NCBI RefSeq assembly: GCF_017815135.1
Contig: NZ_JAGJCF010000001.1
Span: 248,001 to 312,000, forward strand
Length of the DNA stretch: 64,000 nt
Source of the DNA: Jiella mangrovi
Lineage (GTDB): Bacteria; Pseudomonadota; Alphaproteobacteria; Rhizobiales; Rhizobiaceae
Reading direction: 5' to 3'
Below are positions 49,383 to 63,221 of the stretch, in pieces. Made by a program: the position numbers and the translations under genes. The notes under the pieces are model-generated. The model worked only from the letters and a program-made list of their open reading frames with translations, did no database searches and was not told the origin of the DNA. Every line of letters starts with the position of its first letter. The first letter of the stretch is position 1.

Positions 49383-49706
49383 CCGGGTCAGTCAGTTCGG
49401 CCACACAGCAACTGTGTGGAGAGCGGCCTGGAACGGGCGCTTTCAGGCCGTGTGCGGAGATCAAACATTTTGGAAACTGGCGCGCCCTGACGGACCAACT
49501 TCGAACCGTTTTTCCCAGCTTTTCAATGAATTGCAAAGCTGGGACCGTGTGCTGGCGGAGACTTCGCTAGCAGGGCCGAAACCGCCGTCACCCTGACGAC
49601 GCGGGCTGACATTATGCCCTCATACCTTCCCGTTGTTTCAAACCGGTTGACGAATTGCAGTCGCGTAGAGCGGTCTTTCGTCGTCCCTTTGCCTCGACGG
49701 ATTATC
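49383..49706. other. Palindrome-rich gap upstream of mobC: candidate origin of transfer
   Basis: This 324-base gap marks the change from chromosomal genes to the mobile element. It has a perfect 8-bp hairpin CCACACAG-CAA-CTGTGTGG (49401-49419). It also has an interrupted palindrome at 49514-49543 (arms CCCAGCTTT/AAAGCTGGG with inner CAAT/ATTG). GCGCCCT at 49482-49488 equals the core of the IncQ-type nic region. Such features beside mobC and a relaxase gene suit an oriT. The first hairpin could instead terminate the GntR gene. No tRNA was seen at this junction. Confidence 0.5.
49514..49543. repeat. 30-bp interrupted palindrome in the oriT candidate
   Basis: CCCAGCTTT (49514-49522) and AAAGCTGGG (49535-49543) are perfect arms. 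Inside, after one mismatch, CAAT and ATTG extend the stem around a GA loop. Relaxases commonly recognise such a hairpin beside the nick site. Confidence 0.75.
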
Positions 49707-50123
49707 ATGAAAACGAAGACCAGAACGAAGCGTGGCAGCGTTGCCGCACCTATATCGCTGCGCCTGACGCCGGAAGAGCGTGCTCAGCTCAAGATCGCCG
49801 CAAAGGGACAATCGCAGAGCTCTTATATCCGGCAACGGCTATTCTCCGGTTCGGATGACGCTAATAGTCCCGACCTTGCCTTCTCCGCCGAGCAGCGCCT
49901 ACGCCCGGCGGACAGGCAAAGGCTTCTTGTCCAAATTCTCGCCAATCTCGGCAAGGCCCAAATCGGCGCCTCGCTTGTGGAGCTCTCAGAGGCGGCACGC
50001 CTCGGCGTACTACCGTTAACGCCGGACATATTGACCGAACTTCGCGCCGCTTGCGCGCATGTGACCGAAATCCGTTCGATGTTGCTGCGAGCGCTTGGCA
50101 TGGGAACCGGAAGCACGTCATGA
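49707..50123 (+). CDS. mobC: MobC-like relaxosome accessory protein
   Basis: A 138-aa DNA-binding accessory factor of plasmid mobilisation. The N-terminal block APISLRLTPEERAQLKIAAK then SQSSYIRQRLF is the ribbon-helix-helix-like start of MobC proteins. A helical C-terminal half (LVQILANLGKAQIG) follows. ATG at 49707 is favoured for its basic MKTKTRTKRG start, though the frame is open to 49614. Its TGA overlaps the relaxase ATG as ATGA. Confidence 0.82.
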   Translation: MKTKTRTKRGSVAAPISLRLTPEERAQLKIAAKGQSQSSYIRQRLFSGSDDANSPDLAFSAEQRLRPADRQRLLVQILANLGKAQIGASLVELSEAARLGVLPLTPDILTELRAACAHVTEIRSMLLRALGMGTGSTS

Positions 50124-51424
50124 TTCTGAAGGGCAGCCAGCGCGGCCATCCGCGCCAACTCGCCAGGCACCTCCTGAACTGGCGCGACAACGACCATGTT
50201 GAGGTGCATGCGATCGAGGGATTCATCTCGCGCGACCCAGCAGGTGTATTTCAGGAAATGGCGGCGCTGGCAAAGCCCACCAAGTGCGTCCAGCACATGT
50301 TTTCGCTGTCGCTCTCGCCACCTGCAGATAAGCAGGTGATGATCCAAGACTACGAAGACGCAATCCAAATGGCTGCCGAACGGCTCGGCCTTGATGGCCA
50401 GCCAAAGATCGTGATCTTTCATGAGAAAAGTGCCCGCCGCCACTGCCACGTGGTGTTTTCGCGCATCCAAGCGAGTGAAGAGAAGGTAAAGTCCATTAAT
50501 CTACCATTCTACAAGGAACGCCTGCGCGACGTTTCACGAGAGCTTTATCTCACGCATTCCTGGCAGCTTCCCAAGGGATTGCGTGATCCCGCTCTCACCG
50601 ACCCGCGAAACTACGGTCTTGAGGAATACCATGTCGCCCTGCGAACCAAACGTGATGCGCGCGAGATCAAAGCGACGCTGAAATCATGCTGGGAACGTTC
50701 CAACAGCCGAGCGTCGTTCATCACTGCGCTCGAAGAAAAGGGATTCCATTTGTGTCGGGGCGATCGGAGGGGTTTTGTTGCAATCCACTGGGGTGACCCC
50801 GATGCTATATTCTCTCTCAGCCGCTGGGTTGATCAGAAGACAAAATCACTGCGCGCGAAGCTAGGAAACGCAGATGAGTTGCCGTCAATCGCCGAGATCA
50901 GGAGCATGGTGCGCGGCATCACATTTGAGAAACATCGCCAATTAGTCGCCGAATTAAACAAGGATATGGCGCTACAGGCGTACATGCTCAACACAGAGAG
51001 AAAGGACCTTGTCGCTCGTCAACGCAGGGCTCGACAAATTCTGGAGCATCGGCAAGCAGACCGCCGCTTGTTAGAAGCCGAAAGTCGTCAAAAACGCCTC
51101 CGAGCTGGCCTGCTGGGTTTATGGGACTGGGTTATCGGAAAACGCTCAGCGATGAAGAAAGCGAATGCTGTCCTGTCTAAGCAATGCGCAGCTCGCGATG
51201 ACACGGAACGCTCTGCTCTTAAACAGGCTCAATACCATGAAATTAGAAAAATCAATAACCGCATTGCTGGATTGAAAAATTGGTATGAATATAAAATAAC
51301 TACGCTCTCAAGCATATTGAATTACACCGATTTTCCAAAAGTTTCTATCGAAACGCTCTATATATATCATAATCTAGAAGAACACGACAGACCTGTTATT
51401 ATAGAAGAGATGAATATCTCCTAA
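50120..51424 (+). CDS. MobA/VirD2-type relaxase
   Basis: A 434-aa mobilisation nuclease that would nick oriT and pilot the strand. It starts MILKGSQRGHPRQLARHLL, the usual opening of MobP-class relaxases. The three-histidine metal motif is HEKSARRHCHVVFSR (H101, H108, H110). The C-terminal 130 residues are basic and helical. ATG at 50120 overlaps the mobC stop by four bases. The 3' third of the gene turns AT-rich, matching the cargo region that follows, so the end of the protein may be of mixed origin. It is convergent with the NTPase gene. Confidence 0.9.
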   Translation: MILKGSQRGHPRQLARHLLNWRDNDHVEVHAIEGFISRDPAGVFQEMAALAKPTKCVQHMFSLSLSPPADKQVMIQDYEDAIQMAAERLGLDGQPKIVIFHEKSARRHCHVVFSRIQASEEKVKSINLPFYKERLRDVSRELYLTHSWQLPKGLRDPALTDPRNYGLEEYHVALRTKRDAREIKATLKSCWERSNSRASFITALEEKGFHLCRGDRRGFVAIHWGDPDAIFSLSRWVDQKTKSLRAKLGNADELPSIAEIRSMVRGITFEKHRQLVAELNKDMALQAYMLNTERKDLVARQRRARQILEHRQADRRLLEAESRQKRLRAGLLGLWDWVIGKRSAMKKANAVLSKQCAARDDTERSALKQAQYHEIRKINNRIAGLKNWYEYKITTLSSILNYTDFPKVSIETLYIYHNLEEHDRPVIIEEMNIS

Positions 51425-51473: not shown

Positions 51474-54400
51474 TTAATTTTCTAAATCACCCTCAACTCC
51501 TCTGACAATGTATTCGACAACGTTCGAATGTCCATTTCGGGATGCCAACATCAGCACATTATGCCCACCAGCTACTTCAACATCAGGGCTGAGACCTAGT
51601 TCAATCGCCTTTTTATACATGTTCAAATGACCATTATCGGCCGCGAGAGCTAGCAAATTATAATTCGAATTATCGCACTCCTCATAACTGGCTCCCATTC
51701 TTATAAAAAAATCAACTAGCTCTAAATGGCCATTTGCGCCAGCGGCTAGCACTGGCGAAAGGCCCGTATCCGTACGACTTCTTATTTCGCCCGGATTTCT
51801 CTCAAGAATTGCCCTACAGACATCGATATTTCCTTTACTAGCCGCAATATTTATGCTGGACCAGCCATCACGAGCTCGGATTGAAACGTCGGCACCTAAA
51901 TCAATTAAATACAACGCAATTTCCAAGTGCCCATTCGCGATCGCATGTATTAAAGCCGTACAATTCTCATTGTCTCTCGCGTTGATATCAATCCGGTGGT
52001 TTAAGTTTTCGCCATGACGTTCATTCTCTCCCACCCCCTCGCTTGCGTCTCGTGAGCGTTTTCCTTTCGCTTCTGAAGGTTGATTCATTCTCCAATCCCC
52101 ATTGGCACCCGAAATGAGAGTCCTTACAAACGTTTCACGTCCAAGCTCGCACGCAAACATCAACAACGTGATATTGCGGGACAAAGCCCTGACCTCCGGA
52201 TTCGCACCTGCGCGCAGGAGTAGACAGAGCGTCTGCACGTTGTTTCCCAGACATGATGCGAAAAGCGCAGTGGTGCGATCTGTCGTCTTGCGCGCCTCAA
52301 CGTCCGCCTGTGCTTCAATCAAATATTCTACGATATTATCGTAGCCACCAAAGCTTGCGGTCATCAATGGCGTCAACCCGTCATCGACGCAGCCAGCGTT
52401 TACCGAGGCACCTTTCCCGTGTAGGAATTGAACAATCTCAAGATGTCCTTTTTCTGCCGCCACAAAGAGGGCTGTAATACCGCTCTCGCCACAATGCCGG
52501 TTCACATCGGCGCCCAGTTCAACGAGCCACTGAACGACATCGAGGTGGCCATCCCTGCAAGCAACCAAAAGCGGCGGCCAACCATACTGCCAGCCCTGCT
52601 CAACATCAAAATTAAATACGTCTTGTATTGCTTTTAGCAATTCCAGCCTACCAAGCATAACAAACGGAATCAATTTTGACGTACCCACACAGCACGTTTC
52701 GAAAAAAGAACTCAATAATTCTTCAATTGGGTCCAAATCTGCGTCATTTATGACACCGGATCTAAGTCGAATATCCAAATAGATAAGATATGTTGCGACC
52801 GCATATAAGGAAAAAGGACCTTTCAGAGCCGCTCTAATCGTGTCTATGTCCACTTCGTCCAGGAACATGTCTTCGATCGCGGGTTTGCGCAAATGCTGAA
52901 CCATATCCGCGATGCGGATACGTGCCATCAGTGCGATTTGACTAGCAGTTGGGTTCGCTCTAATCGACTCCGAAGCAAGAAATCTAGAAAAATTGCGCCA
53001 GGCGTAGGAAACTTCTTCCAGTCTTTGGTTCTCGTTTATGAGATTTTGAGTTAATCGCTGCGTAGTTGCCATGAAATTGTAAAAGTATTCGTTATCCATA
53101 TGATGATAATCGACGCAAAAAATCATATCGTAAAATTTTCTCTCGACGTCTCCGCAATACGATAACTCTTGTAGAAAATACAGGAAAAAACTCTCCCCGA
53201 GTATGTCGGGCTCAAAAGGATTCAGAACATCATCTCGCTTTGACGAAACAATCCGTTTGGCGTGCGCCTTGATACGAGCGGACGGAGAAAGTTTGTGCTG
53301 ATGTCGCTTAATTTCGGGAGGTAGATTTTCCTCTAAGTGGAAAAATTCTACACCACGGAGCAGCGTCGCAGCGGATACGTACGCACCGACCCAGTGACCT
53401 AGATTTGGTCTAGAGTCGTCTGGTGCCGCCTGCGCCCAAGGCCTCCTAGTTGAACTTTCAAAGTAGTATTTTATTAAATCGCGACGGGTCCAGTTCGAAA
53501 TTTCGCGCTTCTCCTTTAATGCCTGGCCCATTAAAGCTGCAAATAGGGGATGACGAACCGCATCAGGGTTTTCTGCATGGTCACCCATCGCTATTAGATG
53601 TTTTGTCGCATCAACAATCTCGTTGCTTTCAGGAGATATAGGGTTTTCTGGTGTACTAGCGGTCGAAGATATCACATTGGCGAGCAGGCCGTCTGCAGTC
53701 CGGTCCGCTTTTATATATAGAGGACTTCCCCGATAGATTAGGGTTTTCCTTGCGTGATCTACAGTTTTTTGATCGTGAAATATTTTTGACCAGATTGGGT
53801 CGGAGCGCAGAACGTCAGGATATATGTGATCAATAAGAAGCAGGCGAATTTTCTTATTGCAACGATAGTTGGAAAATCGATCCGATATGACGTGAATAAC
53901 GTCATCAAAAAAGGTAGTATAATCAATTACAATTATTGTATTTCGCGCAGGATTCCACTCGGTCCAGACGTTTATGTCGCGTTTGTGAACAAAGCCGGCA
54001 TCCCAAACTTCGTTTGCTTCATTTGGGATGTAATCTTTCATCCACTGAGATACTAGACGTGTCTTGCCAGCGCCCGAAGGGGCAATGATCGCCCATATAA
54101 GAAATGGCCGATCATCGTGAACAAATTGGTGGAGCTGGTCAATCTCGTCGAAACGATGTGTTAGCGGAATAGTAAAGTGATTATGGGGGTTAAGCCAGAC
54201 ACCCTCGTCAGCATTTGTATCCTCTGCCTCTTCTTTTGTCACATATTGCGGCCATGCGAATGGCGCCGTGGGGTGAATCGGTTTCTGTTTTGATTCGACG
54301 TGTGTCTCTATGAGGTGCGAGGGAAGCGCCAAGAACCGCTCGCCCATTGATTTTCTCAGTTCTATGTTGGCATTAATCTCACGCGAATATCCAACGTACT

Positions 54401-54695
54401 CAGGTTGAAGGATAATATAATAATGAAAGGCGGATGCTTTCATTGCATGACCGTTGCCTCTCTGAAGTTCGTCTCTAAGATTTAGATCTTCAGATGACCA
54501 GTCGAGTGGTCGCCCGCACGCTTGGGCACTTTCAATGGCGGTTTGACGTACAAGCTTTAGTAGTGCGTGAAAATTCTTGCCGCCAGGGGCGATTTTGCTA
54601 ATCCGCTTATACAAATATATTTTATTAGGGTTGTTACGCCCCATATATTTAGCTTCAACGGAATTTAGAAATTCCGGGAAGTGCACTGGCTCCAT
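51474..54695 (-). CDS. STAND-like P-loop NTPase with C-terminal ankyrin repeats
   Basis: A 1073-aa soluble protein, function not known. Residues 1-180 match no domain I recognise. A P-loop NTPase follows with Walker A IIAPSGAGKTRLV (K211), Walker B NTIIVIDYTTF (about 252-262) and a second hydrophobic strand IRLLLIDHIY (about 283-292). About 350-700 is helical. Residues 701-1065 are about ten ankyrin repeats (for example GWPPLLVACRDGHLDVVQWL and NGHLEIALYLIDLGADV), broken by a hydrophilic insert near 865-903. The three-part plan is that of STAND signalling ATPases, used in antiphage defence and in conflict systems. The gene is much more AT-rich than its surroundings and sits as cargo in the mobile element, 49 bases after the MORN-like gene. 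Confidence 0.85.
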   Translation of the reverse strand: MEPVHFPEFLNSVEAKYMGRNNPNKIYLYKRISKIAPGGKNFHALLKLVRQTAIESAQACGRPLDWSSEDLNLRDELQRGNGHAMKASAFHYYIILQPEYVGYSREINANIELRKSMGERFLALPSHLIETHVESKQKPIHPTAPFAWPQYVTKEEAEDTNADEGVWLNPHNHFTIPLTHRFDEIDQLHQFVHDDRPFLIWAIIAPSGAGKTRLVSQWMKDYIPNEANEVWDAGFVHKRDINVWTEWNPARNTIIVIDYTTFFDDVIHVISDRFSNYRCNKKIRLLLIDHIYPDVLRSDPIWSKIFHDQKTVDHARKTLIYRGSPLYIKADRTADGLLANVISSTASTPENPISPESNEIVDATKHLIAMGDHAENPDAVRHPLFAALMGQALKEKREISNWTRRDLIKYYFESSTRRPWAQAAPDDSRPNLGHWVGAYVSAATLLRGVEFFHLEENLPPEIKRHQHKLSPSARIKAHAKRIVSSKRDDVLNPFEPDILGESFFLYFLQELSYCGDVERKFYDMIFCVDYHHMDNEYFYNFMATTQRLTQNLINENQRLEEVSYAWRNFSRFLASESIRANPTASQIALMARIRIADMVQHLRKPAIEDMFLDEVDIDTIRAALKGPFSLYAVATYLIYLDIRLRSGVINDADLDPIEELLSSFFETCCVGTSKLIPFVMLGRLELLKAIQDVFNFDVEQGWQYGWPPLLVACRDGHLDVVQWLVELGADVNRHCGESGITALFVAAEKGHLEIVQFLHGKGASVNAGCVDDGLTPLMTASFGGYDNIVEYLIEAQADVEARKTTDRTTALFASCLGNNVQTLCLLLRAGANPEVRALSRNITLLMFACELGRETFVRTLISGANGDWRMNQPSEAKGKRSRDASEGVGENERHGENLNHRIDINARDNENCTALIHAIANGHLEIALYLIDLGADVSIRARDGWSSINIAASKGNIDVCRAILERNPGEIRSRTDTGLSPVLAAGANGHLELVDFFIRMGASYEECDNSNYNLLALAADNGHLNMYKKAIELGLSPDVEVAGGHNVLMLASRNGHSNVVEYIVRGVEGDLEN

Positions 54696-54744
54696 AGTGA
54701 GCCACCTCTTTCACGTGAGCTAAGCTGCCTTGCGAGCCGGTCTG

Positions 54745-55281
54745 CTATCGCGGTCGGAGACTTAGTAGATATAGCAGCGGCGACAATGCTTTAGTTTTTT
54801 CGGGAAGCCATGCCGGATCGAAGCCGTCAAATGGTATAATCCGTCCGTCTTCATCGTATGCTGTCCCGTCAGGGTCGAAAGAGAAATAGGCATGTCGATC
54901 ACCGCTTCGATAGTGTTTTCCGTTTCGGCAAAATTGTAATTCTGACAATGTGCCGGTCCGTTCGTCAAATGCTATTGTCGATGGGCGGTCGCCAAAACGG
55001 CTTGGTACCCCGTGTCGAGCCCAGCAGTACATTGTTGCCTCATTTGTGGTTTGGCTGAAATAGATTGCGCTCGGCAAATCGTCTTCTCGATGAGCCCCAC
55101 CGGCCTTTTTCCAGAAGGCCGAAATTAGATTGCCTTCCTCATCTAGAACCACCCGCGCGGGAAGGTCACCGGGTCCTTCGGTCTCATTTCGAGAATTGGT
55201 CCAATTGATCCAGGTCAGCTTGTTTGTCGCTTCGCTGAATGCCGTCTCAAGTCGGTGCTCCTGCTTGTAGGTTTCTCCCAT
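54745..55281 (-). CDS. MORN/YwqK-like repeat protein upstream of the ankyrin NTPase
   Basis: A 178-aa protein with about four imperfect repeats of a theme with key residues HR..D-P-(S/A)..I-x-F/D..G. Examples are GGAHREDDLPSAIYF, PSRFGDRPSTIAF and KHYRSGDRHAYFSF. This resembles MORN or YwqK-type antitoxin repeats, an assignment by pattern only. No catalytic residues or membrane segments are seen. ATG at 55281 has a weak ribosome site. It is co-directional with and 49 bases upstream of the NTPase gene, so the two are probably co-expressed as a partner pair. Confidence 0.65.
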   Translation of the reverse strand: MGETYKQEHRLETAFSEATNKLTWINWTNSRNETEGPGDLPARVVLDEEGNLISAFWKKAGGAHREDDLPSAIYFSQTTNEATMYCWARHGVPSRFGDRPSTIAFDERTGTLSELQFCRNGKHYRSGDRHAYFSFDPDGTAYDEDGRIIPFDGFDPAWLPEKTKALSPLLYLLSLRPR

Positions 55282-55456: not shown

Positions 55457-55633
55457 ATGACCACGAGTTCGAACCGCATCCACAAACACTGTCCGCTCGT
55501 TGAGGCCGTCCTGGACCGGCTTGTCGCCCAAGAACGGCGCATTCAGGAACTTGAGCGCGAGAGGATTGAAACCGCCCGCCTTGTTGGCCAAGTGATTATG
55601 AACCAGCAGGAGGGCTCATCCAATGACTTTTGA
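55457..55633 (+). CDS. Small coiled-coil protein
   Basis: A 58-aa protein with a charged helical core (VLDRLVAQERRIQELERERIE has heptad spacing). It is not assigned to a family. ATG at 55457 has GAAGGA upstream. Its last 11 bases overlap the start of the GNAT-like gene in another frame, implying coupled translation. It could be an accessory or antitoxin-like partner of that protein. Confidence 0.6.
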   Translation: MTTSSNRIHKHCPLVEAVLDRLVAQERRIQELERERIETARLVGQVIMNQQEGSSNDF

Positions 55634-56348
55634 GCCCGCGAATGAAAACGGAGCCGCTTCTGGCGCGGCTCCGGTTCGGTTCGCACTGGAAGGCGCGACG
55701 ACGATTTTCGTCAATCGCCATTCCGGCTTGATGTTGAGCTGCATTGAGCCGTTTGCAAACGCCGAAAGCCTCGATGAAACGAGCAATGCCAAGCGGCTAT
55801 TTGACCGGACGCGTTGCGATAAACGCGGTCATGCGTTCCTGCGCGACTACCGTCCCGCCGACCTGCTCGATAGGCAAGCGGTGCTTGTCGTCGCGAAGGA
55901 CGGCGGCCGCACGGCTGGAACGGCTTTTGGTTGTCCGCTGGGCGAGCGCGACTTCAAGATCGGCGGGCTTGTCGTCGATCCGGCCTATGCCGGCCAAAAG
56001 CTGGCGACGGGCTTGATCGCGGCCCTCGTCCTGCACGGTCAGACTGTTCATGGGCAGTTTCGGGAAATCATCGCCGGCATCCGGCGTCTACCGGACGACC
56101 GGTTGAACGAGGCGTCGCGGCGCAGTTTTGACCGGCTCGGCTTCCTTTTGGAAGTCGATATCCAGAAGGTCGAGCTGTGCGGCACGTATGAGGACCGTCA
56201 TCTCATGTCCTCGGCGGAGTTCGCGGACGGCAGGGCACCCTATGTCCGCCGCCAGTGGATGGTCGCGGAGGGGTCAATCGCAGAAGCCCATAGCCGGGCG
56301 TTCCTGCGCCAGTGGACGCAAGCGGTCTTGCCGCTGCCGCTCACGTGA
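55623..56348 (+). CDS. GNAT-like N-acetyltransferase
   Basis: A 241-aa protein with a GNAT-type acetyl-CoA core: KIGGLVVDPAYAGQKLATGL holds the motif A pattern (strand, then VxP and a glycine-containing loop before a helix). A C-terminal segment with RRSFDRLGFLLEVD follows. The substrate is unknown. It lies in the mobile element just left of the transfer genes. GNAT enzymes in this setting may act as toxins or modify self-proteins; no evidence decides. ATG at 55623 overlaps the preceding small gene. Confidence 0.6.
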   Translation: MTFEPANENGAASGAAPVRFALEGATTIFVNRHSGLMLSCIEPFANAESLDETSNAKRLFDRTRCDKRGHAFLRDYRPADLLDRQAVLVVAKDGGRTAGTAFGCPLGERDFKIGGLVVDPAYAGQKLATGLIAALVLHGQTVHGQFREIIAGIRRLPDDRLNEASRRSFDRLGFLLEVDIQKVELCGTYEDRHLMSSAEFADGRAPYVRRQWMVAEGSIAEAHSRAFLRQWTQAVLPLPLT

Positions 56349-56732: not shown

Positions 56733-57245
56733 ATGCCCAATGATGATCTCAAACCTTGGCGCTCGCGCGCAAATTCCGACTTCTCGCGCAAGGTCGATGG
56801 GCCGGACCGGCAACGCGAAGCGCCCGACATGCTGGGACAATTTCCGGACCGCGACGAACTCGATCAGCGCATCCGCCAGCTCGATCCCGACAACCGGGCG
56901 AAAGTCGATGCCATCGTCCAGCACGGTCAGGACCGGCTCGGCCGGGAGATGACCGCGCAGAAGCGCTCCCGGCAGTTTCGGGAGATGCGGGAAGAGAACC
57001 AGCGGCTTCGCGATCTCGTCCAGAATCATGTCCGGGAAATCGACGGCATTCCGTTCGATGCCAAGGAAGAAATCGCCCATATCAAACAGCAGGCGCAACG
57101 CGCGGTCGAGGATCGCGAAGAGCATTATCTGGAGAACGTCCGCACCGACGTGCGCTACTCGATCGAGCAGGCACTGCACGAGGCGGAACACCCCCAGCAG
57201 GACCACGGCAACCGGGACCATGACCGGGAGGACCCGGATCGGTGA
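56733..57245 (+). CDS. Charged helical protein upstream of the coupling protein
   Basis: A 170-aa, very polar protein with long helices (REMTAQKRSRQFREMREENQ) and an Asp/His/Arg-rich tail. Composition is typical of TraD/TraG-partner relaxosome proteins, but no family is certain. ATG at 56733 has GAGGTGG upstream. It ends in a GTGA overlap with the coupling-protein gene, so the two proteins are probably made together and may interact. Confidence 0.7.
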   Translation: MPNDDLKPWRSRANSDFSRKVDGPDRQREAPDMLGQFPDRDELDQRIRQLDPDNRAKVDAIVQHGQDRLGREMTAQKRSRQFREMREENQRLRDLVQNHVREIDGIPFDAKEEIAHIKQQAQRAVEDREEHYLENVRTDVRYSIEQALHEAEHPQQDHGNRDHDREDPDR

Positions 57246-58930
57246 GCCCGTTCTGGTCCGGGTCCGCGCTCGCTGTCGCCGCTCGGGCGACGGCGGCCGG
57301 GCTGACACTCTGGGCACTGGGCGCCTTCGCCCAAGGGCTCGGCTTTTCGTTCGTCGCCTGGTGCGCCTATGGGCTGCTAGCATACTTCGGCCTCGCGGCG
57401 GTCTGGTATCTCGTCCGGCGCTGGCGGGACGCCCGTGCCCTGGCGGCCGTGCTGGAGCCGACCGGCCTCTACGGTCATGGCCATATCGCGGATGAAGCCC
57501 ACGTCGCCGAATACGGACTTGCCGACCCGTCCTATGACGGATCGGGCCTTTTCCTCGGCGCGGTCGGCCAGACCATCCTGAGCTACAAGGGATATTCTCA
57601 CGTATCGGTCCGCGCGCCGAACGGCGGCGGCAAATCGGAATCTCTTGTCATGACCAATTGCCTTGGCCTTGGCGCCGACCGCAATCTCGTCGTGACGGCC
57701 AAAGGCGGCGAGGTCGCCAGCATCACGTTGCGTCACCGGCGCGACCGTCTCAAGCAGAATGTCGCGATCATCAATCCGTGGAGGATCGACGATCTGCCGA
57801 ACTTCGATTTCAATCCGCTTCAAGTGCTGGTGCGCATGGCCGCGACCGGCGATCCCGAGATCGTCGATTTCGCGCGGGCAATCTTCTCCGTCCTGGTCCC
57901 GGAGCCCGAACAGTCGGGCGACAACAAGTTTTTCCGGGAAGCCGCCAAGGACTTGCTGGTGTGGCTCGCCATCGCCCTCGCTTATTGGGAGGCGGAGACT
58001 GGTGAACTGGTCTGCAACCTCCCATATCTCTACCGCGTCATCGGCGGCGGTGATGAGAGTCTCGGGCCCTGGCTCGTCCGCATGCAGTCCACGGACGCCG
58101 GCAGCGGTCTTCTGAAGGTCGCGGCCGGCCGGATCACGGCGAAGGCCAAACGCTCCGAAAAGACCTTCGAGAATGTCCTGAGCGAAGCGCAGAATGCGCT
58201 GGCGATTTTCGACCCGCATGGGCCTTTGGGCCGGGCGATGGAATATTCCGACTTCGATCCGCAAGACCTCAAGAACAAGAAGATGTCGATCTACATCGTC
58301 GCGCCGCCGGAGAAGCTGATCGGCGAGTACGGCAAATGGATGGGACTGGTCGTCGATGTCCTGATCCGCACCTGCCTGCAGGCACGCAAGGCGGAGCCCC
58401 GCGTGACGTTCCTATTGGACGAGTTCGCCAACTTATCCACGACAGCGCTGCCCGCTATTCTGCCCGCCCTTTATATCGGCAGGGCCTATGGGACTCAGAT
58501 CGTAACCTTCGTCCAGGACCGGCGCTCCTACGAACGATACGGCAAGGAATCTTCCGCCTTCGATACGCAATGTGACGTGATCTGCAGCTGGGGTGTGCGC
58601 GACCTGAACGATGCCGAGTGGATCGAGAAGCGCAGCGGACAGGCAAGCGTCATCACCGAATCCGGCACTATCCCGGCTGACGCATCCTCCGGCGATCTCG
58701 ACACAGGCCGGGCCTCGATGGGCCTCTCCGAAAAAGCCATCCCGGTCATCCGCAAGGACCAAGCGATCCAGCTTCCGGACCACACGCACCTGATTTTCTA
58801 CAAGAACAAGGCCCCGATCCTGGCCGATCTGATCAGCTACAAGATGGTCGATCCGTGGGTACGGCAGGCCGATATTCCGCAGGGCGATCCGGAGCGCTTC
58901 CCGATCCGCTTCAAACTCAAAGGGCGCTGA
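57242..58930 (+). CDS. Type IV coupling protein, TraG/VirD4 family
   Basis: A 562-aa inner-membrane ATPase that would bring the relaxosome to the transfer channel. Two N-terminal membrane helices (about 10-35 and 38-58) are followed by Walker A VRAPNGGGKSES (125-134) and Walker B TFLLDEFANLS (389-399). The TraG block GHGHIADEAH precedes them. The start is GTG at 57242, overlapping the previous stop. The rest of a mating-pair apparatus (VirB4/VirB11-type ATPases) is not in this window, so the element may be mobilisable, or those genes lie beyond the end. Confidence 0.92.
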   Translation: MSPFWSGSALAVAARATAAGLTLWALGAFAQGLGFSFVAWCAYGLLAYFGLAAVWYLVRRWRDARALAAVLEPTGLYGHGHIADEAHVAEYGLADPSYDGSGLFLGAVGQTILSYKGYSHVSVRAPNGGGKSESLVMTNCLGLGADRNLVVTAKGGEVASITLRHRRDRLKQNVAIINPWRIDDLPNFDFNPLQVLVRMAATGDPEIVDFARAIFSVLVPEPEQSGDNKFFREAAKDLLVWLAIALAYWEAETGELVCNLPYLYRVIGGGDESLGPWLVRMQSTDAGSGLLKVAAGRITAKAKRSEKTFENVLSEAQNALAIFDPHGPLGRAMEYSDFDPQDLKNKKMSIYIVAPPEKLIGEYGKWMGLVVDVLIRTCLQARKAEPRVTFLLDEFANLSTTALPAILPALYIGRAYGTQIVTFVQDRRSYERYGKESSAFDTQCDVICSWGVRDLNDAEWIEKRSGQASVITESGTIPADASSGDLDTGRASMGLSEKAIPVIRKDQAIQLPDHTHLIFYKNKAPILADLISYKMVDPWVRQADIPQGDPERFPIRFKLKGR

Positions 58931-62136: not shown

Positions 62137-62868
62137 CTAAAGGTTCAGCGTCTCGAAGCGGTTTGCCGGAATAGGCGTTTCCGCTGCCGGAGCGATGGAC
62201 TTGGTGAAGCTGCCTGACAGGTTCGGAATCTGCGGCTCCTCGTAACCGGGCATGTGGCGTTTCACTGCGTCCGGCATCTCGAAATCCAGATCGTCTTTCA
62301 TCTGATCGAGGTCGGCCTTGCTGATTCCGTCCTCACCGAGTCTCTCACGCGCGACGTCGAGCTTTTCCTGATATTCGAGCAGTTCGCTGCGCTCGGCTTC
62401 AAGGCTCTCCCAATTATCGAGCTGGGCTTTGTACGGCTCCCATTTCGTGTGGAAGTCGGCGATTTCGTCGGGACTGAGGACGCTGGGATCAAGCTCGGCA
62501 CCGAACTCATCGAAAACTCGGGTGCCGTCTTCGGTCTTGAAGACCCGGCGTCCGTCTTCGCTCACGTAGGCCTTTGCCAGCATGTCATCGAGCCGCTCTT
62601 TCGCCGCATCGAGCTCGACGCGATTTTCTTCAATCGCTTCAACGACAGCCGTGTCATAGGTATCGAGCTGAACTTCGAACTCGGCGATCTCCACGTCCGT
62701 TGCCAGTACGACCGCGCTGATGGCATCCAGCGTATCGTCCAAACGGTCGGACGCTTCATCCTTCCGGCGTTGTTTCTCCTGCTGCTGACGAAACTGCACC
62801 TGCCGGCGGTGCCATTCGGCGCTCTCCGAAAGGGCCTTGTTCCAGCTCGCAGCAACGTTCAGGTTCAT
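62137..62868 (-). CDS. Coiled-coil protein of the mobile element
   Basis: A 243-aa protein dominated by charged helices (RRQVQFRQQQEKQRRKDEA; RLDDTLDAISAVV; YEKLD-like runs), with a beta patch in the middle (DGRRVFKTEDGTRVFDEFG). No family recognised. ATG at 62868 overlaps the TGA of the upstream secreted-protein gene as ATGA; a four-codon longer frame exists but that overlap favours this start. Possibly a structural or relaxosome-associated protein. Confidence 0.65.
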   Translation of the reverse strand: MNLNVAASWNKALSESAEWHRRQVQFRQQQEKQRRKDEASDRLDDTLDAISAVVLATDVEIAEFEVQLDTYDTAVVEAIEENRVELDAAKERLDDMLAKAYVSEDGRRVFKTEDGTRVFDEFGAELDPSVLSPDEIADFHTKWEPYKAQLDNWESLEAERSELLEYQEKLDVARERLGEDGISKADLDQMKDDLDFEMPDAVKRHMPGYEEPQIPNLSGSFTKSIAPAAETPIPANRFETLNL

Positions 62869-63221
62869 TCCGCCCCGCATTCCCGCTTGATCAGAGCGTA
62901 GATGATGGCAGCCGGGTATTTGTCGCGGTAATTCGAGTAGGCCGACATCACCTGACGAACGGCCTTCTCATTGTCTGCATAGTACCAGTCGTACATGCAT
63001 TGGACGCGCGGGCTTTCGCCGCCCGCCTGCAAGGCTGTGTGGTACATCAAGCCTTCGAGGATTCCGGAGGTATAGGCGCCCACTTCACGCGATTGCATGT
63101 TGTCGAGAACGACGCCCGCCGTCATCGCGGTGTCGGCCTGAGCCGCGCCGCCCATGAAAAGCATAGCGCCAGCAACGGCGCTGATATTCTGTGTGGCTGA
63201 TGCGGTATTACGACCCCACAT
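62865..63221 (-). CDS. Small exported protein, Rap1a/Tai-like by pattern
   Basis: A 118-aa precursor with a signal peptide (SAVAGAMLFMGGAAQA). The mature part has VGAYTSGILEGLMYHTAL, RVQCMYDWYY and a C-terminal Cys (IKRECGAE). This recalls the Rap1a/Tai immunity fold (small helical domain with a disulfide), but is only a pattern match. Translational overlap with the coiled-coil gene suggests a two-protein unit. If it is an immunity-type protein, its toxin is not seen here. Confidence 0.55.
   Translation of the reverse strand: MWGRNTASATQNISAVAGAMLFMGGAAQADTAMTAGVVLDNMQSREVGAYTSGILEGLMYHTALQAGGESPRVQCMYDWYYADNEKAVRQVMSAYSNYRDKYPAAIIYALIKRECGAE

Follow-up and report, generated by a model that had tools for sequence, protein, structure and literature searches.

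A STAND-like ankyrin protein and its small partner gene: a putative two-gene defence module carried by alphaproteobacterial mobile elements

In a 64,000-nucleotide stretch of the Jiella mangrovi genome (the window; contig NZ_JAGJCF010000001.1, positions 248,001 to 312,000), a gene for a 1073-amino-acid protein with nucleoside triphosphatase (NTPase) motifs and ankyrin repeats is preceded by a gene for a 178-amino-acid repeat protein. Do these two genes belong together and, if so, on which part of the large protein does the small one act, and to what end? The pairing goes beyond chance because 13 other loci hold a related pair of genes, and judging by this recurrence the two genes form a real module. 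Within it, the small protein appears to be linked to the N-terminal domain of the large one. With a probability of about one half, we read the pair as a two-gene sensor-switch defence module, probably directed at viruses or competing DNA, in which the small protein would restrain an N-terminal output, the carrier being most likely a family of mobilizable or conjugative elements of Alphaproteobacteria.

The gene pair and its recurrence

Counting the window, the pair is present in 14 loci (Table 1). The two genes are codirectional in 12 of the 13 pairs measured, window included, with 10-76 bp between the open reading frames (ORFs); the pair of L044 is divergent, with 142 bp between the genes. 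In the window, the small gene lies upstream on the same strand with a gap of 49 bp, and one transcript for both genes is likely; promoter-like sites numbered 6, against 6.7 in shuffled sequence. The small gene is found directly upstream in six of the seven ankyrin-clade loci (window, L010, L044, L084, L101, and L102). In L101, it is truncated where the contig stops, and a further fragment sits at the edge of another contig of the same genome, L142. The seventh locus, L083/L100 (L100 being a contig of G477, treated with L083 as one locus), starts 67 bp before the first ORF, so that pairing cannot be judged. A STAND protein with Sel1 repeats in L012 also has the small partner (E 4e-10).

A profile built from six small proteins and run on 297 genomes of the order (E 1e-6) matched eight loci in seven genomes: three training loci and five new ones (L120, L121, L122, L123, and L124). 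All five adjoin a large gene, and four encode proteins with an NTPase and/or repeats; in L122, the small gene stands beside a gene for a 395-amino-acid unknown protein, followed by an ankyrin protein. A later profile of 11 rows was run on 385 genomes of the class (E 1e-5) and on 249 genomes of the phylum; the three genome samples overlap. Six genomes of the class matched, two of which were in training (the window's own and G501); G357 and G460 carried new paired loci, and G546 and G638 unpaired matches. In the phylum, three genomes matched, the new ones being G905 (paired) and G847 (unpaired, two adjacent matched places being counted as one). Outside the training sets, the partner profiles thus found 8 paired loci among 11 new ones, in seven families of one class, and the three unpaired matches are proteins of the tandem HREDGPAV type, two of which come from a single genus. 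A four-row partner profile found no partner near the distant NTPase cores (0/8 loci: L011, L013, and L103-L108); it was not applied to L008, where the annotated upstream neighbours are transposases. The original prediction had named failure of the two genes to co-occur elsewhere as a reason to abandon it, and their recurrence removes that objection.

Both ORFs lie at the coordinates and on the strand given by the original prediction, and the Walker A and Walker B motifs and the ankyrin repeats that it described in the large protein are present. In Pfam, the ankyrin repeats scored far above the cut-off (Ank_2, E 9.9e-52), the NTPase region gave a sub-threshold AAA_16 match (E 0.086), and the N-terminus had no match at E up to 1, in line with its earlier description as unrecognised. 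Matches to PADLOC and NCBIfam models were mainly via the ankyrin repeats: the PADLOC models PDC-M72A, Ankyrin, and MzaA have these repeats in common with the protein, and their best stretches are confined to residues 697-810. PADLOC searches at E up to 1 returned no Avs model, and the earlier statement that no known defence set fits holds for the PADLOC systems, ankyrin matches apart. Sequence searches of the Protein Data Bank yielded no usable match to the N-terminal half, to the ankyrin-clade profile, to the partner, or to the N-terminal domain, and a PHROGs search gave nothing below E 0.07. The 178-amino-acid protein had no match in Pfam (E up to 1), PADLOC, or NCBIfam. Neither it nor the relatives scanned matched a MORN or YwqK model in Pfam or NCBIfam; the MORN/YwqK identity first proposed was therefore not borne out, and the name should be taken as a resemblance, homology not being established. 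No plasmid record matched this protein or either of two relatives; a Sel1-type relative matched 797 plasmid records, and the best 15 of the 797 were all via its Sel1 part.

Relatives of the NTPase core were sought more widely. A single-protein search matched 4 of 100 relatives at E 0.001, the window's own genome apart, and a three-row profile matched 10 of 384 other genomes of the class at E 1e-5. On genome contigs, an alignment query gave at least two further loci (L083 and L084), and a single-protein query gave no relative. No relative was found among 600 candidate stretches of viral contigs, and the N-terminal 698 amino acids had no match in phage records. Six plasmid records matched the same stretch (E up to 1), and one of them, CP049029.1 (E 1e-6), was used; ankyrin-driven plasmid matches (36 and 135 records) were mostly set aside, as they cover the repeats. 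In six aligned proteins, the P-loop, the IDY of Walker B, and the P.L.E of EPDILGE are invariant. The commonest Pfam STAND model in the relatives is nSTAND_NTPase5 (PF25199), always below its curated cut-off (over the P-loop region, E 7.2e-7 in L008, 7.7e-6 in L120, and 3.2e-5 in L010); the window protein itself has no match to it at E up to 1.

Two marks of STAND proteins were found: a P-loop with Walker A and B motifs in a large multidomain protein, conserved in homologues, and exchangeable N-termini and C-terminal repeats (ankyrin, Sel1, TPR, or none recognised) around a kept core. Judged by these, the core is STAND-like, with nSTAND_NTPase5 as its nearest Pfam model, below threshold. The effector-switch-sensor plan first suggested is supported by the relatives, in which the NTPase core is retained and the C-terminal repeats differ (Sel1, TPR, or others). 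Seven loci fall in the ankyrin clade (the six paired loci named above and L083/L100). At L044:4033-5200, several ankyrin repeats are near-identical to one another by eye, as if newly duplicated. At L009:4529-10532 on a Sinorhizobium plasmid, a gene that looks patatin-like by eye precedes one for a 1628-amino-acid STAND-like ankyrin protein, near pieces of a coupling-protein gene; this is perhaps another ankyrin-receptor pair, and by eye we judged the protein to belong to another family and rejected it as a relative.

Association of the partner with the N-terminal domain

The large proteins that accompany the small gene vary. They include STAND proteins with ankyrin repeats, with Sel1 repeats (L012 and L121), with TPR (L120), or with no recognised repeat (L123). 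The large protein of L138 has a NACHT/NPHP3-like NTPase (NPHP3_N, E 3.2e-4, below cut-off), that of L124 has Sel1 repeats and a hydrophobic stretch with no P-loop (by eye), and the 395-amino-acid partner in L122 has no NTPase. In a phylogenetic tree, the ten paired NTPases did not form one clade against nine unpaired ones (approximately unbiased test, p 1e-43; long branches present).

The partner seems to be tied to the N-terminal domain because the partnerless protein of L011, whose core is closely related to that of the paired protein of L123, has an unrelated N-terminus. The two are 56% identical over 612 amino acids, with no similarity in the first 173 (L123) and 105 (L011) residues, that is, before residues 174 and 106; L011 has no partner gene nearby, and none was found in its genome, G066, at E 1e-6. 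We also used a strict leave-one-out test, in which each of 11 N-termini was ranked among 2,656, the left-out row being excluded from the building of the alignment. Eight of the 11 ranked first: the window (E 0.1), L010 (3.4e-6), L084 (2.7e-7), L101 (6.7e-5), L012 (5.1e-6), L121 (1.1e-10), L120 (2.5e-9), and L124 (0.0053). Among the controls, L011 and L102 had no match, six of seven unpaired N-termini ranked far down, and L106 was not listed. With NTPase-bearing rows only in training, the L124 domain still ranked first (E 0.067 and 0.15); L124, itself without an NTPase, thus appears to share its N-terminal domain with STAND proteins. The STAND protein of L102 and the protein of L122 share a second N-terminal subtype (E 7.5e-4 and 2.3e-5, in windows picked by eye), which L123, L137, and L138 do not join. 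With at least two non-matching subtypes, the idea of one detectable N-terminal domain common to all partners was dropped. The type-1 domain profile matched 5 of 279 genomes, in one place each, all of them training loci; no type-1 domain without a partner and no second copy was found in these 279 genomes, other subtypes not having been searched.

The surrounding mobile element

As the original prediction had it, the pair is AT-rich (the GC content per kb is 44-49% between 51 and 55 kb and 60-70% in the first 50 kb) and lies between relaxase and coupling-protein genes; the element genes around it bear out its status as cargo. The same gene order, namely NikA, relaxase, pair, GNAT, and coupling protein, is found in L010, a locus from a different family within the order. 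The window relaxase, whose start was picked from the alignment with L010, is 49% identical to the L010 relaxase over 401 aligned positions. In each of the 14 paired loci, the stretch retrieved contains one or more genes related at BLAST level (E up to 1e-3) to the backbone of the window's or L010's element; for L084, this is only a distant relative of a 118-amino-acid protein gene, and the L012-type coupling-protein label was given by eye.

Table 1. Features of the gene pair and its surroundings (positions in the window) and the loci in which the pair occurs
Feature	Position	Strand	Basis
NikA-like relaxase accessory protein	49614..50123	+	Pfam E 0.00013, below cut-off; adjoins relaxase in L010
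MobA/VirD2-type relaxase, convergent with NTPase gene	50120..51424	+	Pfam Relaxase E 1.5e-13
STAND-like NTPase with C-terminal ankyrin repeats, 1073 amino acids	51474..54695	-	ORF and translation, motifs, Pfam, homologues
Ankyrin-repeat region (putative sensor), about residues 700-1065	51501..52598	-	Pfam; limits approximate
EPDILGES motif, residues 495-502	53190..53213	-	conserved in distant NTPase family
Walker B-like TIIVIDY, residues 253-259	53919..53939	-	IDY invariant in six aligned homologues
Walker A APSGAGKT, residues 205-212	54060..54083	-	G208, G210, K211 invariant in six aligned homologues
N-terminal domain, residues 1-150; seems to travel with small partner gene	54246..54695	-	leave-one-out profile (weak), L123/L011 swap
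178-amino-acid repeat protein, conserved partner gene (YwqK-like by resemblance only)	54745..55281	-	ORF, partner profiles
GNAT-family protein, next larger gene past pair	55623..56348	+	Pfam; relatives in L010, L121, L122
VirD4-like type IV secretion system coupling protein	57242..58930	+	Pfam T4SS-DNA_transf E 5.5e-38
Paired loci: window, L010, L044, L084, L101/L142, L102, L012, L120, L121, L122, L123, L124, L137, L138			

The region to the right of the window (L144:154-8791, contig G000:C12), apparently part of the same element, encodes GajB-like (E 1.1e-172) and GajA-like (E 3.3e-203) proteins, a C5 methylase accompanied by an Eco29kI-type restriction enzyme, and ArdC. Further on, the ORF of a large serine recombinase (L144:14130-15923) overlaps a tRNA-Arg(CCG) gene on the opposite strand, a possible attachment site. 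Because of these GajA/GajB, restriction-modification, ArdC, and serine recombinase genes, the pair seems to be part of an integrated mobile element rich in defence genes. For a wider view, 13 cargo proteins were picked by hand for PADLOC from maps of 39 relaxase loci, L012, and L124. Known defence genes were found among them: Avs3a in L081, about 1 kb from a related relaxase; GajA and GajB in L012, adjoining its STAND pair; a type I restriction enzyme and methyltransferase in L052; AbiEii and AbiEi in L058; LmuB in L064 and, more weakly, in L060; SoFic in L045; and a weak type II restriction enzyme in L047. The 569-amino-acid cargo protein of L124 had no PADLOC match. At the relaxase loci, the matched genes are downstream of the relaxase at distances of 0.15 to 6.3 kb. 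The pair is thus located among known defence genes, as far as the hand-picked proteins go, and the defence role first put forward as an inference gains neighbourhood support from them. Other loci carry non-defence cargo by eye, for example an efflux-pump-like gene set in L073.

Several further features were seen in these elements. Two small genes of the window, one with weak JetA and Ppl matches (62137-62880) and one encoding the 118-amino-acid protein (62865-63221), have relatives in several paired elements. At L044:1173-4001, the relaxase is fused to an AAA_30/RecD-like helicase (942 amino acids; the window and L010 relaxases have 457 and 423). In the window's own genome, a gene for a 1246-amino-acid protein (L075:4746-8486) with a marginal PADLOC match (PDC-S73) and a second relaxase gene of this relaxase family are about 2.2 kb apart.

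Proposed mechanism and alternative explanations

The large protein would be a putative STAND-type ATPase whose ankyrin repeats detect a trigger; the NTPase would then change state and most likely oligomerise, and the N-terminal domain would be the output part. These three roles follow the established STAND plan. The small repeat protein would be the dedicated partner of the N-terminal domain, docking on it and holding it inactive until the sensor fires. The freed domain would then stop the growth of the infected cell or kill it, and so protect both the population and the element. We infer the binding of partner and domain, the direction of action, the oligomerisation, the trigger, and the anti-phage role; the central point, that the small protein would act on the N-terminal domain, is suggested because of the L123/L011 swap, L124, and the L122/L102 subtype. 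Restraint is preferred over recruitment on two thin grounds: no type-1 N-terminal domain without a partner was seen, and one close partnerless relative has a swapped N-terminus. A broader version is possible and offered tentatively: an output module of repeat partner and matching N-terminal domain may be plugged onto varied receptors (STAND-ankyrin, STAND-Sel1, STAND-TPR, NACHT-like, and NTPase-less Sel1 or ankyrin proteins), the guarded output staying constant while sensor and ATP switch are interchangeable.

Among known systems, Avs (AVAST) proteins have the same plan of N-terminal output, STAND NTPase, and C-terminal repeat sensor; the window protein differs in its sensor, ankyrin here and Sel1 in relatives, in its dedicated small partner gene, and in matching no Avs model. 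To our knowledge, most STAND immune proteins described so far work without such a dedicated small partner. Effector-associated domains (EADs), according to PMC8195603 and PMC7159879, are small N-terminal domains without catalytic activity that are joined to STAND modules, with parts that can be exchanged; Kaur and colleagues (PMC8195603) describe several copies that act by homotypic contact. There the companion is a second copy of the domain, whereas here it is a repeat protein. In the texts searched, MORN occurs in neither paper, YwqK not in PMC7159879, and Sel1 not in PMC8195603. YwqJ-YwqK of Bacillus subtilis, a putative LXG toxin-antitoxin pair (PMC8321402), likewise sets a small protein beside a larger one, but homology of the window protein to YwqK is not established. 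A YwqK domain is also named in a figure legend on type VI secretion effectors (PMC7970981), and ankyrin-repeat immunity proteins are catalogued in PMC3482391. Among the titles and abstract openings listed from the one literature library searched, we recognised no description of this pair.

Several observations weigh against the restrained-output module. The L123/L011 swap is a single natural case, and the N-terminal domain of the window, despite its first rank, is weakly tied to the others (E 0.1). Three N-termini (L044, L122, and L123) fail the strict leave-one-out test, those of L137 and L138 matched neither subtype, and there was no match between the two subtypes. A mirror-tree comparison found no co-divergence of NTPase core and partner (nine pairs, r -0.03, p 0.47). 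Frame breaks in related copies, which the original prediction had said would count against it, do occur: of the paired loci, L102 has a broken large gene, L137 apparently has one too (a 304-amino-acid ORF with a P-loop, then a 778-amino-acid ORF without a BLAST match to the family), L120 is doubtful, and the other 11 of the 14 are unbroken; the large gene is also split in L083/L100. The hand-picked PADLOC set gives no rate of defence genes, and the position of the module amid transfer genes makes a role in transfer possible. Finally, no catalytic motif was recognised in the N-terminal domain. This last point would suit the same defence module with its roles reversed, the N-terminal domain serving as a non-enzymatic, EAD-like adaptor and the repeat protein as a recruited effector or scaffold. 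The logic of EADs (PMC8195603) and the company that the partner gene keeps with STAND, NACHT-like, and NTPase-less proteins speak for such recruitment; yet EADs are multi-copy and homotypic, and no second N-terminal domain copy was seen in the five matched genomes (5/279), nor does the small partner have a recognised domain or enzyme signature. We regard this reversal of roles as doubtful.

That the pair serves the element through transfer regulation, entry exclusion, or addiction, and not phage immunity, strikes us as unlikely. The backbone relatives at all 14 paired loci would fit it, as would the order of the genes: antitoxin genes often precede toxin genes, and the partner gene comes first where the two are codirectional. 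The broken large genes of L102 and, apparently, L137 keep an intact partner ORF; however, the NTPase gene is several times longer, so chance breaks fall there more often. Moreover, a minority of the elements carry the pair (partner in 7/297 genomes, against the relaxase, at E 1e-30, in 50/297), and known defence genes are found close to related relaxases and, in L012, next to the pair. An ordinary ankyrin protein next to an unrelated hypothetical gene by chance is very improbable: the three unpaired partner-profile matches (G546, G638, and G847) could be cited for it, but they are the tandem HREDGPAV-type proteins, and the 8 of 11 new matches that are paired span seven families.

If the two-gene defence module is real, a separate partner that tracks the N-terminal domain across different switches and sensors would reveal a way of keeping such receptors safe or of giving them an output. 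L123 and L011 would then provide a natural domain-swap test, and the neighbourhood of this relaxase family would be a place to look for further defence systems.

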